This document shows, in pieces, positions 9,319 to 54,288 of a stretch of DNA of 64,000 bases (its first letter is position 1; every line of letters begins with the position of its first letter). The stretch is from Nitrosomonas halophila (GTDB lineage: Bacteria; Pseudomonadota; Gammaproteobacteria; Burkholderiales; Nitrosomonadaceae). The stretch lies in contig NZ_FNOY01000011.1 in assembly GCF_900107165.1 (NCBI RefSeq), positions 1-64,000 of the forward strand. The letters run 5' to 3'. Below the pieces are notes generated by a model, which saw only the letters and a list, made by a program, of their open reading frames with translations, made no database searches and had not been told where the DNA came from. A program made the position numbers and the translations under genes.

Positions 9319-9663
9319 TCATTTCGCTCCCATGCGCAGTCTGACCCACTCGGTCATATCCGGAATGGGGGCACCCTCGACAGCATTGCTTGGTTTTTTC
9401 ACCAGACTGGCCGCGTTGAGTACGGAACATCGGCAAGAATCCGCCAGCTGCTGCAAGGCGATGTCGATCCTGATCGCCTGTGCCTGGGCTTCCAGCATGG
9501 CGGATTCATCCTGTCGTTTGGCGAAGGCTGCTGCCGACTCGTTGAACAGGCTCGCGACATCGACCGTCACAAATCGTGGAAACGGATGCGTATAAATCCA
9601 GGCACTACCGACGATGAAGCTTGCGAGCACGCTGAACACCCAGGTGATGACGAACCCTTTCAT
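9319..9663 (-). CDS. trbI: TrbI-like F-type transfer protein
   Basis: A 114-residue single-pass protein: an N-terminal membrane anchor (FVITWVFSVLASFIVGSAWI) and then a periplasmic part starting FVTVDVASLFNESAAAF, as in F TrbI, which affects pilus retraction. The ATG overlaps the traC stop (ATGA), implying coupling. In related systems traW, traU and traN follow here. In this window traF comes next instead, so those three are missing from their usual place. Confidence 0.75.
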   Translation of the reverse strand: MKGFVITWVFSVLASFIVGSAWIYTHPFPRFVTVDVASLFNESAAAFAKRQDESAMLEAQAQAIRIDIALQQLADSCRCSVLNAASLVKKPSNAVEGAPIPDMTEWVRLRMGAK

Positions 9664-25732: not shown

Positions 25733-26163
25733 GGGCAACGATATATGCGGTGCAGGCAATCGACACTAAGTCTAGGTGCAGGTCGGTCCGTCCGCCGCCC
25801 GCAGGGGTTCCTGGGAGAGGTGCGCAAGCTGGCCCACGTCGCACACATAGCTGCCCACTGTGGTGCCGTTTTGGTGCAAGGGTGACTACTCCCATCCGGT
25901 TTTCTCGGGACACCCACTCTGGGAATCTTGGATCGTTTCTGCCGGTTTCCCCACCGCCGTTCACCACCGCTCGGTTTCTGGGGTGGTACTCGGAATTAGC
26001 TCGGCAAAGCAAAAAGTAACCGATTGTTTCAGATCAGAAAAGCCAGAAAACCGACCCATCAAATACAGCTCATTTTCGGAATTGGTTCGGCTTACTCCAA
26101 GCACATCAACACCAGCTGAAAAACAGGTAAGGATTCTTCGGCTAGCTGTAGGCATCAACCACT
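25733..26163. other. Gene-poor stretch between recD2 and the tRNA fragment
   Basis: About 430 bp without a convincing gene. Short open frames exist on both strands but lack ribosome-binding sites and family features. This is the probable junction between the element and host DNA. No integrase gene is visible here. Confidence 0.5.
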
Positions 26164-26218
26164 GAGCGGCGGACTGTTAATCCGCAGGTCCCAGGTTCGA
26201 GCCCTGGTCGGGGAGCCA
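26164..26218 (+). pseudogene. tRNA-Asn 3' fragment (probable attachment-site scar)
   Basis: From GAGCGG onward this reads as the 3' two thirds of tRNA-Asn. The anticodon stem GCGGA/TCCGC encloses the loop CTGTTAA (anticodon GTT at 26176-26178), followed by the T arm (CCAGG TTCGAGC CCTGG), the 3' acceptor strand TCGGGGA, G and CCA. The 5' acceptor strand TCCCCGA and the D arm are absent upstream, where unrelated sequence begins. Such 3' tRNA pieces are left when an element integrates into a tRNA gene. Confidence 0.85.
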
Positions 26219-43860: not shown

Positions 43861-44967
43861 TCAGTCGGACGGGCGCAGGTTTTTGCGGAAATCTTCCGGG
43901 CTGATATTCATGACGCGGCACAGGGTCAGCTGCTCATCCGTCAACGGCTCGCCCTCGCCACCGCCTGCGGGCGGTTTGCCGCCGGTCTGGTTGCCGCTCA
44001 GAGCAGCAATCGGTTGACTGGCTTCCAGGTAGGCCGTGAGCGAAGCCAGATCCTTCTTGCCCAGGTCGCGCGCCCAGTTTTCCTGCACTGGTAGCAATCG
44101 GCCTTCGGCCAGCGCGCTTTCCACCACCTCGTTCACCGTTCGCTCGCTTTGCTCGGCTTTCAGGCTGGCCAGCTCGCCTTGCAGCGCTTGCATGGCAGCC
44201 ACCGGCACAAACCTGGCCGGGTCCGGATTGTCCGCAACCGCCCGCAATGTGGTAATTTGCGCGTTCAGGCCGTTGACCAGCGCCACCAGATGGAAATCCG
44301 CGCGGCTGGCAACAGCTGGCGCACTGGCCTTGAGCTGATCGATGGCCTTTTGCAGCTCGGCCACCACTTCCTCGGTCGTCGCCGTCACCGGCAAATTGAG
44401 CAGCCAGCGCAGCTGCTCCAGCAGTTCATTCATAGTGAGACTCTCCTTGTCGGGATATAGAAGATTGATCTGGGATGCCGCGACGGCATCCATGCCATCG
44501 AGCGCCGGGTTATTGGTCAGCGCTGCGTTCAGCAGGCGCTTGACCGCGCCGGTCTGTTTGTCATAGGTAAAAACGGGGGAGATGTAGCGGTATTCCCCGC
44601 TCTCTATCATCTGGCTGGCGCGTGCGGTCCATTCGACATCGATTGCATACAGGCCCGAGTCGCGCCATTCGATCTGACTGAACCAGGCTGCCGCCGGCGC
44701 GGGCTGGCCGTTCTGTGCAGTGAGCAGCGTCTGGTGCTCGTAATCGACTACGGTGCGGTTCTTGCGCGTCAGGAATTCATCAATGATTCTGGCCGCGCGC
44801 TCGGCGTCGATCTGCCAGTGCGGCACATCATGCGGGCGGCCATCGGTAGCACGGAATTGCCCGGCCGGCAGCAATTGAATTTCATTGGCGGCCGTGACGC
44901 TGATCGCGCAGGCGGCAATGCCAACTGCTGCGGCGGGCTGATTCTGAAAGAAGTGTTTTCGATCCAT
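43861..44967 (-). CDS. Prohead protease/scaffold (Mu gpI-like)
   Basis: The 368-residue protein has an N-terminal Mu I-type protease domain (GRPHDVPHWQIDAERAARII; VVDYEHQTLLTAQNGQPAPA; YISPVFTYD) and a C-terminal helical scaffold (about 200-340). The family contains an internal scaffold start (Mu gpZ); a candidate here is the MNELLEQLRWLLNLPV Met near residue 180, preceded by a purine-rich stretch. It cleaves scaffold and capsid during head maturation. Confidence 0.92.
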   Translation of the reverse strand: MDRKHFFQNQPAAAVGIAACAISVTAANEIQLLPAGQFRATDGRPHDVPHWQIDAERAARIIDEFLTRKNRTVVDYEHQTLLTAQNGQPAPAAAWFSQIEWRDSGLYAIDVEWTARASQMIESGEYRYISPVFTYDKQTGAVKRLLNAALTNNPALDGMDAVAASQINLLYPDKESLTMNELLEQLRWLLNLPVTATTEEVVAELQKAIDQLKASAPAVASRADFHLVALVNGLNAQITTLRAVADNPDPARFVPVAAMQALQGELASLKAEQSERTVNEVVESALAEGRLLPVQENWARDLGKKDLASLTAYLEASQPIAALSGNQTGGKPPAGGGEGEPLTDEQLTLCRVMNISPEDFRKNLRPSD

Positions 44968-45055: not shown

Positions 45056-45104
45056 TGCAAGACAGTATCAAGCAATGACCGATGATCAGACGCAGGAGAC
45101 CCCA

Positions 45105-45365
45105 ATGAATGAAACGTTGACCCGCAATGGGCTGACAACCGGCCAACAAAACGCCCGCAATGCCGCCAAGGCCAAGCGCAGCCCGCTGGAGCGCGCGCGC
45201 GACAACCCGAGATCGGTCAAACTGGCCGTGGCGGCATATTGCTATCACACCTGCAAGGCACAGACCGCCAGCAACTCGCACCTCACCAAACGCGCGATCA
45301 AAAATTGCGAAAAAACCGACTGTCCTTTATGGCCGCATCGCGGCTTCCAAACCCCTGCAAAATGA
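45105..45365 (+). CDS. Small Cys-rich phage protein on the opposite strand
   Basis: ATG 45105 with AGGAG upstream gives 86 residues. The C-terminal half (AYCYHTCKAQT; AIKNCEKTDCPLWPHRGFQ) has four Cys and a His arranged like a zinc-binding phage motif (NCx3-4DCPLWPxR) found in many phages with unknown function. It is the only plus-strand gene inside the late region and lies at the centre of the prophage, beside a structured noncoding segment. It could be a lysogenically expressed cargo gene. Confidence 0.75.
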   Translation: MNETLTRNGLTTGQQNARNAAKAKRSPLERARDNPRSVKLAVAAYCYHTCKAQTASNSHLTKRAIKNCEKTDCPLWPHRGFQTPAK

Positions 45366-45470: not shown

Positions 45471-45589
45471 TCCTAAAATTTTCTAGCAATACCTTGGTAC
45501 CAAAAAATAAAAATAATCGCTTAAATCGAATTCTGATGCGTTTTAACGTTTCTTGTTTTTTTGGCCCTCAGGGCCTACAATTTACCCAT

Positions 45590-45692
45590 GCGGGTGTGAC
45601 ACGGTGAAACTCCCCCGGCCGTAGCACGGCAGCGATGCCGGCGCATCATGTGGGGTTGCCGGGAAACCGGAATGGGGGGCCCCACCACCCGC
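45590..45692 (+). ncRNA. Candidate 103-nt structured RNA with a multi-branched fold
   Basis: A perfect 7-bp closing stem (GCGGGTG 45590-45596 with CACCCGC 45686-45692) encloses three hairpins: GCCGT-AGC-ACGGC (45618-45630), GATGC-CGGC-GCATC (45634-45647), and GTGGGG/CCCCAC (45650-45655 with 45680-45685), which contains CCGG-GAAA-CCGG (45659-45670) with a GNRA tetraloop. CCCCC (45612-45616) could also pair with the G run at 45674-45679 as a pseudoknot. The GNRA loop favours the plus strand as the RNA, but on the minus strand it would be the 3' UTR of the gp30-like gene. I recognise no known RNA family. Confidence 0.6.
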
Positions 45693-45702
45693 ACACTCAT
45701 CC

Positions 45703-46872
45703 TCACTCAGCTTTTTTCAGCAGCCTTCTGATTTCTTCATTGCGCTTCACCTCGTTCGCAGACAGACGCCGGAAGCTGGTCATGAATATGACACGCCCTG
45801 TTTTGGTCGCTTTCACCACGGTCACATAACCATCCTGTTCCAGGATATAGATCATGCTCCGGCTGGTATCCTGAATCTGCTTGCCGTTCTCGATGGCGCT
45901 TTGCACAAAACCGTATTCTTCCGCCGTAATTTCTGGATGCACGGCTTGTTGCTTTTTCATGGTCTCGGCAGAGATGCGCACGGTATGCGTCTTGGCACCC
46001 ATCGCGGCAGCATCCCGATCCCGCAGCACGCCGATCGGAAACACGCCTTCAGGCTGATCATGGAATTTCCCGAACTCACCGCTTGATACCAGGCTCCGGA
46101 TCATGCCCGCAGCCAGCGTCTCATCCGCTGCATCCAGCTTGTCGGCGACGAATGCATTCAGGTTCTCGCGCCGACCGCCCGGCGGATAGTTGAAGGACGG
46201 ATCGACCCCTCTTGGAATCTGCTGCACTTCGCCGGTGCGCTTGTTGACGTAGGTATAGGTTTCTTCCTGCGGGGCGCGGTCCACCGTCAGCCCTCTTTGC
46301 GCCAGCATGCGGTCGGTCAGGGCAATCACCCCGCATTTGCAGTTATAGGCTTTGACCGGATAATGCGCTGCCCAGAAAGGATCATCCACCGGCAACACCA
46401 GGCCATCCCACGCCGAATGCTCCAGCCTGGGGTGTTCGCTGTTGTTGGCGTCGTACATCAGATAGGGGAAAGCTTCCTTGTGATCCTGGATGCGGGCCCA
46501 CTGGCCCTCGGAATGCGCTGTGCGCAGGTTGGTATCGAAGATCAGCTTCAATCGTCTGGGGCTGCCCAGCTCGACTTCCCGGACTTCGCCGGTTTGCGGG
46601 TCTGCCATTTCGGCGCGCCCCCACCAGCCCTTTTCCATCAGCAGCGGGCTAAGGTGGCTTCGGAACTGTTCAAAAGGGGTGCCCTCGGCCAGGGCATTAT
46701 CGACCGCTGCCCGGATATCGCGCAGGATATCGAGCTGCATGGCCTTGGCCACGGTAAAGGCTGCCTGGTGTTCCTGCTGCCAGACATCCTGCCAGCTGAA
46801 TCCGATCCGGTAGCCTTTCTGGCGGAAATAGGCAATTGCGTCCTCGGGCGGCAGGCGCTTGAATTCAAACAT
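45703..46872 (-). CDS. Mu gp30/F-like head morphogenesis protein fused to a PBECR-type domain
   Basis: The 389-residue protein has a head-morphogenesis domain (residues about 1-260; YRIGFSWQDVWQQEHQAAFT, FDTNLRTAHSEGQWARIQ, YPVKAYNCKCGVIALTDRML) typical of SPP1 gp7/Mu F proteins. The C-terminal 110 residues (PIGVLRDRDAAAM; KTHTVRISAETMKKQQAVHP; YILEQDGYVTVVKATKTGRV) look like the phage-Barnase-EndoU-ColicinE5/RelE-like nuclease (PBECR) group. Such fusions may carry an enzyme into the head. ATG 46872 overlaps the upstream stop. Confidence 0.85.
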   Translation of the reverse strand: MFEFKRLPPEDAIAYFRQKGYRIGFSWQDVWQQEHQAAFTVAKAMQLDILRDIRAAVDNALAEGTPFEQFRSHLSPLLMEKGWWGRAEMADPQTGEVREVELGSPRRLKLIFDTNLRTAHSEGQWARIQDHKEAFPYLMYDANNSEHPRLEHSAWDGLVLPVDDPFWAAHYPVKAYNCKCGVIALTDRMLAQRGLTVDRAPQEETYTYVNKRTGEVQQIPRGVDPSFNYPPGGRRENLNAFVADKLDAADETLAAGMIRSLVSSGEFGKFHDQPEGVFPIGVLRDRDAAAMGAKTHTVRISAETMKKQQAVHPEITAEEYGFVQSAIENGKQIQDTSRSMIYILEQDGYVTVVKATKTGRVIFMTSFRRLSANEVKRNEEIRRLLKKAE

Positions 46873-47179
46873 GCTCGGGTGTCCGTTGGAGAGGAATAAA
46901 CCACCAACCGTGAAAGGGCTCACCGGGCCGGTGCAGTGGCTGACCCATCGGCAGGCGATGGTTCCCGGCACGCGCCACCAATATATAACCCACCCCCTGA
47001 CGGGACAGGGCCGTGACGATCTCGCGCAGGTCGGCCCGCGACAGCTGGCCATGAAACCCGGTCAGAATCGCCACATCGCCATGCAGCCATACATTGCCGA
47101 CCGCGCGGTAATCCGGCTGGTCGGCGGGATCGCCATCGATCACGCGCAGCAGTTGGTGGCTCGGTTCCAGCCAGATCAT
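46865..47179 (-). CDS. Small phage protein between portal and head genes, unknown
   Basis: The 104-residue protein overlaps the gp30-like start by 8 bp. The sequence (AVGNVWLHGDVAILTGFHGQ; LREIVTALSRQGVGYILVAR) suggests a small alpha/beta fold; I assign no function. No clear Shine-Dalgarno sequence precedes the ATG. A hairpin lies 14 bp upstream. Confidence 0.6.
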   Translation of the reverse strand: MIWLEPSHQLLRVIDGDPADQPDYRAVGNVWLHGDVAILTGFHGQLSRADLREIVTALSRQGVGYILVARAGNHRLPMGQPLHRPGEPFHGWWFIPLQRTPEHV

Positions 47180-53947: not shown

Positions 53948-54288
53948 CTTTACGCTCCTTTTAGATGGAAATTCCCACGAAGGTCGTGGGCGGCCAGGCG
54001 CTCTAAACCGGCGTAAGTCGGCGGAGTTATTCCCGGTTGCCCGGTATTGTATTCCTCGCACACCCGGCCATCGGAAAACGATGGACGTAAAAAAACCACA
54101 GCTGACGGACGTGGTTGCCGCTTACGCATAACGGTGTTTAGATCACCTGCGGCGAACCGTACACCGGTTTGCCTGGGTTGTCAACCATTGCAGCCATTGC
54201 AGCCTTATGTAAAGAAAAACCCGTTTCCTTTACATAAAACTGCCGGGGGTGAATTGGCTATCTCCCGGCGGCGGGTCAGCACCCCTCG
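53948..54288. other. Noncoding control region between early genes and Rha
   Basis: About 340 bp without a gene. It contains the candidate middle promoter and dyad described separately, and the hairpin CCCACGA-AGG-TCGTGGG (53974-53990) 27 bp upstream of the rha start, which could influence its translation. Confidence 0.65.
54156..54237 (-). promoter_or_regulatory. Candidate Mor-dependent middle promoter
   Basis: On the minus strand: -35 TTGACA (54179-54184), a 17-bp spacer, and the weak -10 TACGGT (54156-54161). Immediately upstream lie two tandem copies of the 9-mer CTGCAATGG (54185-54202), and further upstream the perfect dyad TTATGTAAAG-N13-CTTTACATAA (54205-54237). A good -35 with a poor -10 and upstream repeats fits an activator-dependent promoter, and a Mor gene lies in the preceding operon. 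Confidence 0.55.

Follow-up and report, generated by a model that had tools for sequence, protein, structure and literature searches.

A conserved structured RNA beside gene F of Mu-like prophages and the alternative RNAs found at the same place

A 103-nt segment of the Nitrosomonas halophila genome, located at positions 45590-45692 on the plus strand of the window (the whole stretch of 64,000 nucleotides that was analyzed), almost certainly encodes a real structured RNA, as judged from the comparison of its homologs. The segment is a member of a conserved structured RNA family, designated RNA-A, and its delimitation relies on homologs with the same borders, covariance model matches and covariation. 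Judging from the loci compared, RNA-A is one of at least three alternative RNAs that occupy one phage slot. An earlier reading of the same DNA, made from the sequence only, had proposed a structured RNA without a known family at this position and had named a comparative search for homologs as one way to check it. This proposal has been upheld: homologs were found whose stems carry compensating changes, the covariation is strong and includes a pseudoknot, and no Rfam match lies at the element in the window or at its counterparts in the loci scanned.

Homologs, fold and covariation of RNA-A

With a 151-base query, matches were obtained in 8 of 101 genomes, the window's own genome being counted. 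Outside the window, seven full-length copies were present in six genomes, and an eighth genome gave only a 24-base match. These seven copies match the query from base 30 or 31 to base 133-136, which corresponds to about 45589/45590 to 45692-45695 and agrees with the borders that had been proposed from the sequence. A covariance model built from eight copies (R1) yielded 10 matches in 8 of 85 genomes of the genus, and pattern scans of viral contigs returned 14, 6, 14 and 45 stretches in partly overlapping sets. When R1 was run against 73 sources, a set without the re-fetched loci L029 and L040-L043 and without L039 (the same as L019), 72 were matched (73 matches), and the exception, L048, scored 34.7 bits with a second model (R2). 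The latter, built from 73 copies, found RNA-A in 8 of 399 genomes sampled from the order, 6 of 369 from the class and 13 of 398 from the phylum, with the genome of the window counted in all three. A single plasmid match of 30 bases (E 0.3) was dismissed.

The structure was evaluated on an alignment of 76 copies (75 distinct) fitted to a covariance model, from which repeats were omitted (L024, L031, L039, L056, L072, L077, L079, L082, L084, L085, L087 and L089) and outside which the copies found later remain. P1, the 7-bp closing stem (45590-45596 with 45686-45692), is paired in 98.1% of cells, and six of its seven pairs are changed on both sides. It is directly adjoined by P4 (45650-45656 with 45679-45685), in which 6/7 pairs are likewise changed on both sides. 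In P3 (45624-45625 with 45643-45644, and 45627-45631 with 45636-45640), which has a GNRA loop in the window, this applies to all seven pairs. P5 (45659-45662 with 45667-45670) is an optional hairpin with a GAAA loop that is missing in 16 or 17 of 75 rows; where present, 4/4 pairs are changed on both sides. Loops 2 and 4 kiss through a pseudoknot (45612-45616 with 45674-45678) that is paired in 100% of cells, with three of five pairs changed on both sides and with the variants CCCCC/GGGGG, CTCCC/GGGAG, CTGCC/GGCAG, CTACC/GGTAG and CTGAC/GTCAG all observed. P2 (45601-45605 with 45618-45622) is always paired and nearly invariant, without double-sided changes anywhere, and is therefore only compatible with the model. 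All these elements are on the plus strand.

Across this alignment, 98.8% of cells are paired, compared to 83.5% in shuffles; pairs changed on both sides number 26 of 35 (15.8 in shuffles), and double-changed cells number 343 (72.8 in shuffles). None of 500 shuffles reached the RNA-A values in paired cells, double-changed pairs or double-changed cells, and in a control with the partners shifted by 1 to 3 columns the pairing fell to 38-49%. A structure-free alignment yields nearly the same pairs, P5 being the least well aligned. Within the family, the junction core is conserved and the outer stems vary freely. The folding energy of the single sequence is unremarkable (z = -0.36 for the plus and -1.06 for the minus strand), with 64/200 and 27/200 shuffles, respectively, folding at least as well as the window sequence. 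Chance folding is thus excluded by the comparison across copies but not by energy, and the earlier argument that such nested perfect pairing is rarely accidental is not borne out by the energy test against shuffles.

The individual pairings that had been suggested are all present in the window, and their fate in the family differs. The 7-bp closing stem and the 6-bp stem are each fully kept in 68 of 76 aligned rows, the tetraloop-capped hairpin, which is optional, is kept in 59 of the 60 rows that have sequence at that place, and the C-run pseudoknot, previously called possible, holds in 75 of 76. Of the two 5-bp hairpins, GCCGT/ACGGC is intact in 36 of 76 rows and is not the conserved hairpin; a better partner for its 5' half is given by ACGGT/GCCGT, which is found in 75/76 rows, although this pairing hardly varies. 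Just one of 75 rows, the window itself, retains GATGC/GCATC, which is hence private to it.

In 30 RNA-A rows, 69 G-U cells and 0 A-C cells were counted, of which two near-constant U-G pairs account for 57 and leave 12; this count excludes two matches in A4 that scored 21 bits and were considered accidental. Because G-U pairs are present and A-C pairs absent, RNA-A was assigned to the plus strand.

Promoter, genomic address and alternative occupants

In the window, RNA-A lies between two minus-strand head genes of a Mu-like prophage and abuts, in antisense orientation, the stop codon of the first. This gene is F/gp30, encoding a minor head protein (45703..47052; phrog_220, E 1.8e-94); the other is I/gp32, encoding a head maturation protease (43861..44967; phrog_328, E 5.4e-117), beyond the opposite end of the slot. 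The earlier placement of the element within the 3' region of gp30/F has to be corrected, as it ends 10 nt beyond the F stop codon, on the opposite strand. Formal annotation of neighbors was mostly limited to F, I, portal, head and Mor genes. The F-I gap also contains a small Cys-containing open reading frame (45075-45365, plus strand), 5' of RNA-A on the same strand, for which PHROGs gave no match.

The 5' flank in the window reads TTGTTT-17-TACAAT on the plus strand, comprising a -35-like box (45553..45558), read from the sequence, and a -10-like box (45576..45581), supported by both the sequence and a count across flanks, which ends 8 nt before P1. A -10-like box just 5' of RNA-A (TAnnnT with at least four of six consensus bases, starting at -20 to -11) is found in 52 of 79 distinct flanks, compared to 0-5 in sixteen intervals farther upstream; for the -35 box, only column counts were made across copies. 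Because the -10-like box is enriched directly upstream, RNA-A is quite probably a stand-alone transcript with its own sigma-70 promoter and a start at P1 or near it. Inspection of the 3' flanks of RNA-A by eye revealed no common terminator.

A census of the slot was based on 128 loci with an F-profile match, reduced to 101 distinct F ends after the removal of re-fetched copies. RNA-A is located at 58 of these ends, RNA-B at 2 (L145 and L204), RNA-C at 19 and none of them within reach at 22, and two together were never seen; since most F loci had been fetched through RNA patterns, these counts are not frequencies. The distance from the RNA-A end to the F stop is -1 to +8 nt in 46/58 cases, and the others range from -48 to +34. 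Of the 22 F ends without an RNA in reach, four carry one at a greater distance, namely RNA-A in L027, L031 and L064 and RNA-C in L163. A fairer sample, fetched through the F protein (18 loci, of which two stop short of the F end, leaving 16), contains RNA-A at 6/16 ends (one being the window), RNA-B at 1/16 and none of the three at 9/16. In 10/10 named Mu-like phages, Mu included, none of the three RNAs is present at the F end, and the RNA-A model has no match in the F regions. Blastn searches against named phages gave no match for three RNA-A queries, one longer query from the window or two RNA-C queries.

RNA-B, the different RNA that occupies the slot of L145 with a similar promoter, and RNA-C, whose pattern was found in 34 viral contigs, are unrelated in sequence to RNA-A, and the RNA-A model matched 0/35 B/C loci. 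RNAalifold predicts a cloverleaf for both. In RNA-C (34 distinct sequences), 819/850 cells are paired and 102 are double-changed, compared to 29.4 in shuffles (0/300), with 142 G-U and 6 A-C cells; in RNA-B (10 distinct sequences), 221/228 cells are paired and 14 are double-changed, compared to 4.1 in shuffles (0/300), with 10 G-U and 0 A-C cells. In both sets the arms fixed by the search patterns cannot vary, and P1 and P3 can and do. Under the same strict -10 test, RNA-C has a box in 6/28 flanks, compared to 0-3 in controls, and is less regular than RNA-A in this respect; TAnnnT within the last 22 nt occurs in 20/28 RNA-C flanks, a figure taken without control windows.

Within the genus, 9/10 RNA-A matches are near a gene for a Mor-like late activator, in either orientation. 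In Nitrosomonas, RNA-A, RNA-B and RNA-C stand in tandem upstream of the Mor-like gene, and B/C sequence was detected in 10/101 relatives and not in the window's genome.

Two further observations concern the slot. A fourth RNA, "D", is suspected just past the F stop in L147 and L149, with GCGAGG/CCTCGC ends, a common GGGAAACNTCGCCATCC loop and a -10-like box before it; a pattern for it found these two contigs as the sole ones. In addition, the record of phage Mu marks a gyrase cut site in the G-I gap (L104:4340-4341), adjoining the place that corresponds to the slot.

Resemblance to tRNA and to known RNA systems

The RNAalifold consensus of RNA-A comprises the 7-bp P1, the P2 and P3 hairpins, and P4 followed by P1, separated by junction linkers of 4, 1, 5 and 0 nt. 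This is close to tRNA, in which the junction linkers are 2, 1, 4-5 and 0 nt. RNA-A thus shares with tRNA a four-way junction, a 7-bp closing stem, a T-arm analogue stacked without a linker and a contact between the second and fourth arms, whereas it has no CCA end and no anticodon-like P3 loop (both judged by eye) and no T-loop, and its kiss is 5 bp long. The linker between P4 and P1 measures 0 nt in RNA-A and RNA-B and 1 nt in RNA-C, and a cloverleaf with a stacked T-arm analogue is predicted in all three. A canonical T-loop is absent in RNA-A and RNA-B; in RNA-C, TTCGAAT is present as a fixed part of the search pattern, within a T-arm (CCGG-TTCGAAT-CCGG). The Rfam family nearest to RNA-C is tRNA-Sec (RF01852), with 19.4 bits, below the gathering score of 47. 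The tRNA model (RF00005) has no match at RNA-A in the window, and ARAGORN predicted 0 tRNA genes in 7 loci and in 20 loci. The tRNA-like shape of RNA-A is somewhat likely to be meaningful.

At gathering scores, Rfam 15 gave no match at the RNA-A, RNA-B or RNA-C copies in the loci scanned; a permissive search returned two snoRNA families and an sRNA of Bacteroides, which were dismissed because their scores fell well short of the respective gathering scores. Self-cleaving ribozymes and RAGATH motifs resemble RNA-A as compact pseudoknotted RNAs near Mu-like phage genes; the strongest association of hammerhead and twister ribozymes is with genes of such phages (PMC10085705). RNA-A is set apart from ribozymes by the lack of a match at the element, a comparison made with Rfam families rather than with the published RAGATH alignments. 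Racrs, as described in another report (PMC10651486), are small phage-encoded RNAs with a proposed anti-host action that mimic CRISPR repeats; RNA-A differs from them in length and junction fold, and the CRISPR repeat families of Rfam, which are family models and not individual host repeats, have no match at the RNA elements in the loci scanned. The possibility that RNA-A is a tracrRNA was rejected, as the best anti-repeat in L127 (2950-2979) lies outside the RNA (9499-9591).

C4 antisense RNA (RF01695) is also a phage small RNA, with matches in five of the same loci (L003, L004, L005, L006 and L009), in the same Mor-side regions as RNA-A, RNA-B and RNA-C. These matches have separate coordinates, with none at the element, and the identification of RNA-A as C4 was rejected. 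A similarity of another kind is offered by the anti-CRISPR locus of the Pseudomonas Mu-like phage JBD69, where cargo is likewise carried among the head genes from F to I; there, the cargo is a protein, AcrF1, encoded in the G-I gap on the strand of the late genes, whereas here an RNA lies at the F end in antisense orientation. RNA-A was not found in the literature searched, a scope that excludes the original descriptions of the RAGATH motifs and of a set of 224 RNA motifs. A slot with alternative tRNA-shaped RNAs would be new, judged against Rfam 15 and not against the published RAGATH alignments.

Possible functions and copies in other settings

The conserved junction core, the free outer stems, the likely promoter and the swapping with other cloverleaf RNAs in the slot fit a trans-acting cargo RNA. 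In such a scheme, RNA-A would be made while the antisense late operon is silent, in the lysogen or in early infection, and would act in trans as a protein-binding RNA. Its tRNA-like shape would allow it to occupy a host protein handling tRNA-like RNAs, with a tRNA-targeting defence enzyme, a tRNA-processing factor or a translation factor as candidate targets, and it would represent exchangeable anti-host cargo, as do the anti-CRISPR genes in the nearby G-I gap of the Pseudomonas Mu-like phage. The whole chain, from a conserved RNA with its own transcript to a trans-acting tRNA-shaped decoy serving as anti-host cargo, is put forward as a tentative proposal. A decoy or counter-defence role for RNA-A is a possibility with the balance against it, and that the decoy would be directed at a tRNA-handling protein is something we infer. 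Weighed against this chain are the lack of a visible common terminator, the missing CCA end, anticodon-like loop and T-loop of RNA-A, the invariance of P2, the arms of RNA-B and RNA-C that are partly set by the search patterns, the sparser -10-like boxes of RNA-C, the 9/16 empty F ends in the protein-fetched sample and the 10/10 in named phages, the different gap and orientation of the JBD69 acr gene, and the copies without recognized phage neighbors. More speculative is a wider generalization, according to which Mu-like phages would keep a dedicated slot behind F for swapped, sequence-unrelated, promoter-bearing, tRNA-shaped RNAs that would act as decoys or inhibitors of host proteins involved in tRNA handling or defence. 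Cells would sometimes adopt such RNAs, in two cases beside their own CRISPR arrays.

Several other functions have to be considered. A new self-cleaving ribozyme, whose junction core would cut the transcript and, for example, detach its own 3' end from the portion antisense to F, is unlikely; it is nevertheless regarded as a serious rival because such ribozymes cluster near Mu-like phage genes, hammerhead and twister being the types named in PMC10085705. A compact, pseudoknotted RNA with a strongly conserved core, freely varying outer stems and no visible terminator would suit this activity. However, no ribozyme family of Rfam 15 matches at RNA-A in the window or in the loci scanned, the F regions of 10 named Mu-like phages contain no hammerhead or twister match, a promoter that starts the RNA at P1 would leave little 5' leader to cut, and RNA-B and RNA-C have the same shape and not the core. 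Similarly improbable is a regulatory RNA that, like C4 RNA, pairs with a phage or host message and restrains, for instance, the late operon or a rival phage. A small prophage RNA with its own predicted promoter, antisense to the late operon and, in Nitrosomonas, also found upstream of the gene for the Mor-like late activator, is in keeping with such a role, but most of the conserved core is either base-paired or part of the junction, the C run of the loop is engaged in the kiss, and among the loci listed the antisense overlap with F does not exceed 48 nt.

The fixed position at the F stop, with 46/58 distinct RNA-A ends at -1 to +8 nt, could also reflect a cis-acting element of the late operon between F and I, such as a terminator, a roadblock or a processing site. 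This explanation is given a low probability, as the G-U pairs favor the strand opposite to the late operon, copies exist away from F and in both orientations relative to the Mor gene, and RNA-A has its own predicted promoter. It is very improbable that RNA-A is a small mobile DNA element (MITE-like) with P1 as its inverted ends: the sharp borders, the inverted 7-bp ends, the occurrence at several genomic sites and two inverted copies in G034 would be expected of one, but the ends vary freely yet keep their pairing, no constant target duplication was seen by eye in the flanks, and both the kiss and the G-U bias suggest that selection acts on the RNA.

The three phage RNA families unmatched by Rfam 15 have clear structures, likely promoters and a fixed position in the genome, which makes their function directly testable. 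If the tRNA-shape reading is true, they would constitute viral RNA cargo that is invisible to protein gene finders, in a phage group that also serves as an anti-CRISPR model.

Some RNA-A copies have no recognized phage gene alongside. In two genomes of one genus (L120:485-1587 and L123:1501-2668), RNA-A stands tail-to-tail with what is apparently the same non-phage gene, 5-6 nt past its stop codon. Copies at such odd places may represent remnants, or the cell may have adopted these RNAs. Three cases of nearness to a CRISPR array were noted as single observations, the first two with RNA-A at the end of the array: RNA-A lies 97 nt from an array with 27 exact repeat-word copies, beside a Cas9 gene (L118:1-1404 with L127:7665-9401); in Propionivibrio (L044:1445-3590), it lies 177 nt from an array with 35 exact copies, with F on the other side; and in L126:3408-7805, about 1.4 kb separate a copy from a third array. 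The descriptions "type I-F array", "Cas6-like" and "ferredoxin-like" (L044, L120 and L123), the last applying to the non-phage gene above, are by-eye readings of repeats or translations. Another copy is flanked by a type I methyltransferase on one side and a SoFic-like defence gene on the other (L131:6073-10923), and a cobalamin riboswitch (L097:448-664, minus strand) occurs about 0.8 kb from an RNA-A copy. Elsewhere in the window, Rfam gave a weak tRNA match at 26143-26207 (plus strand; 30.2 bits against a threshold of 29) and an sRNA-Xcc1 match at 53984-54069 (minus strand; 59.2 bits).
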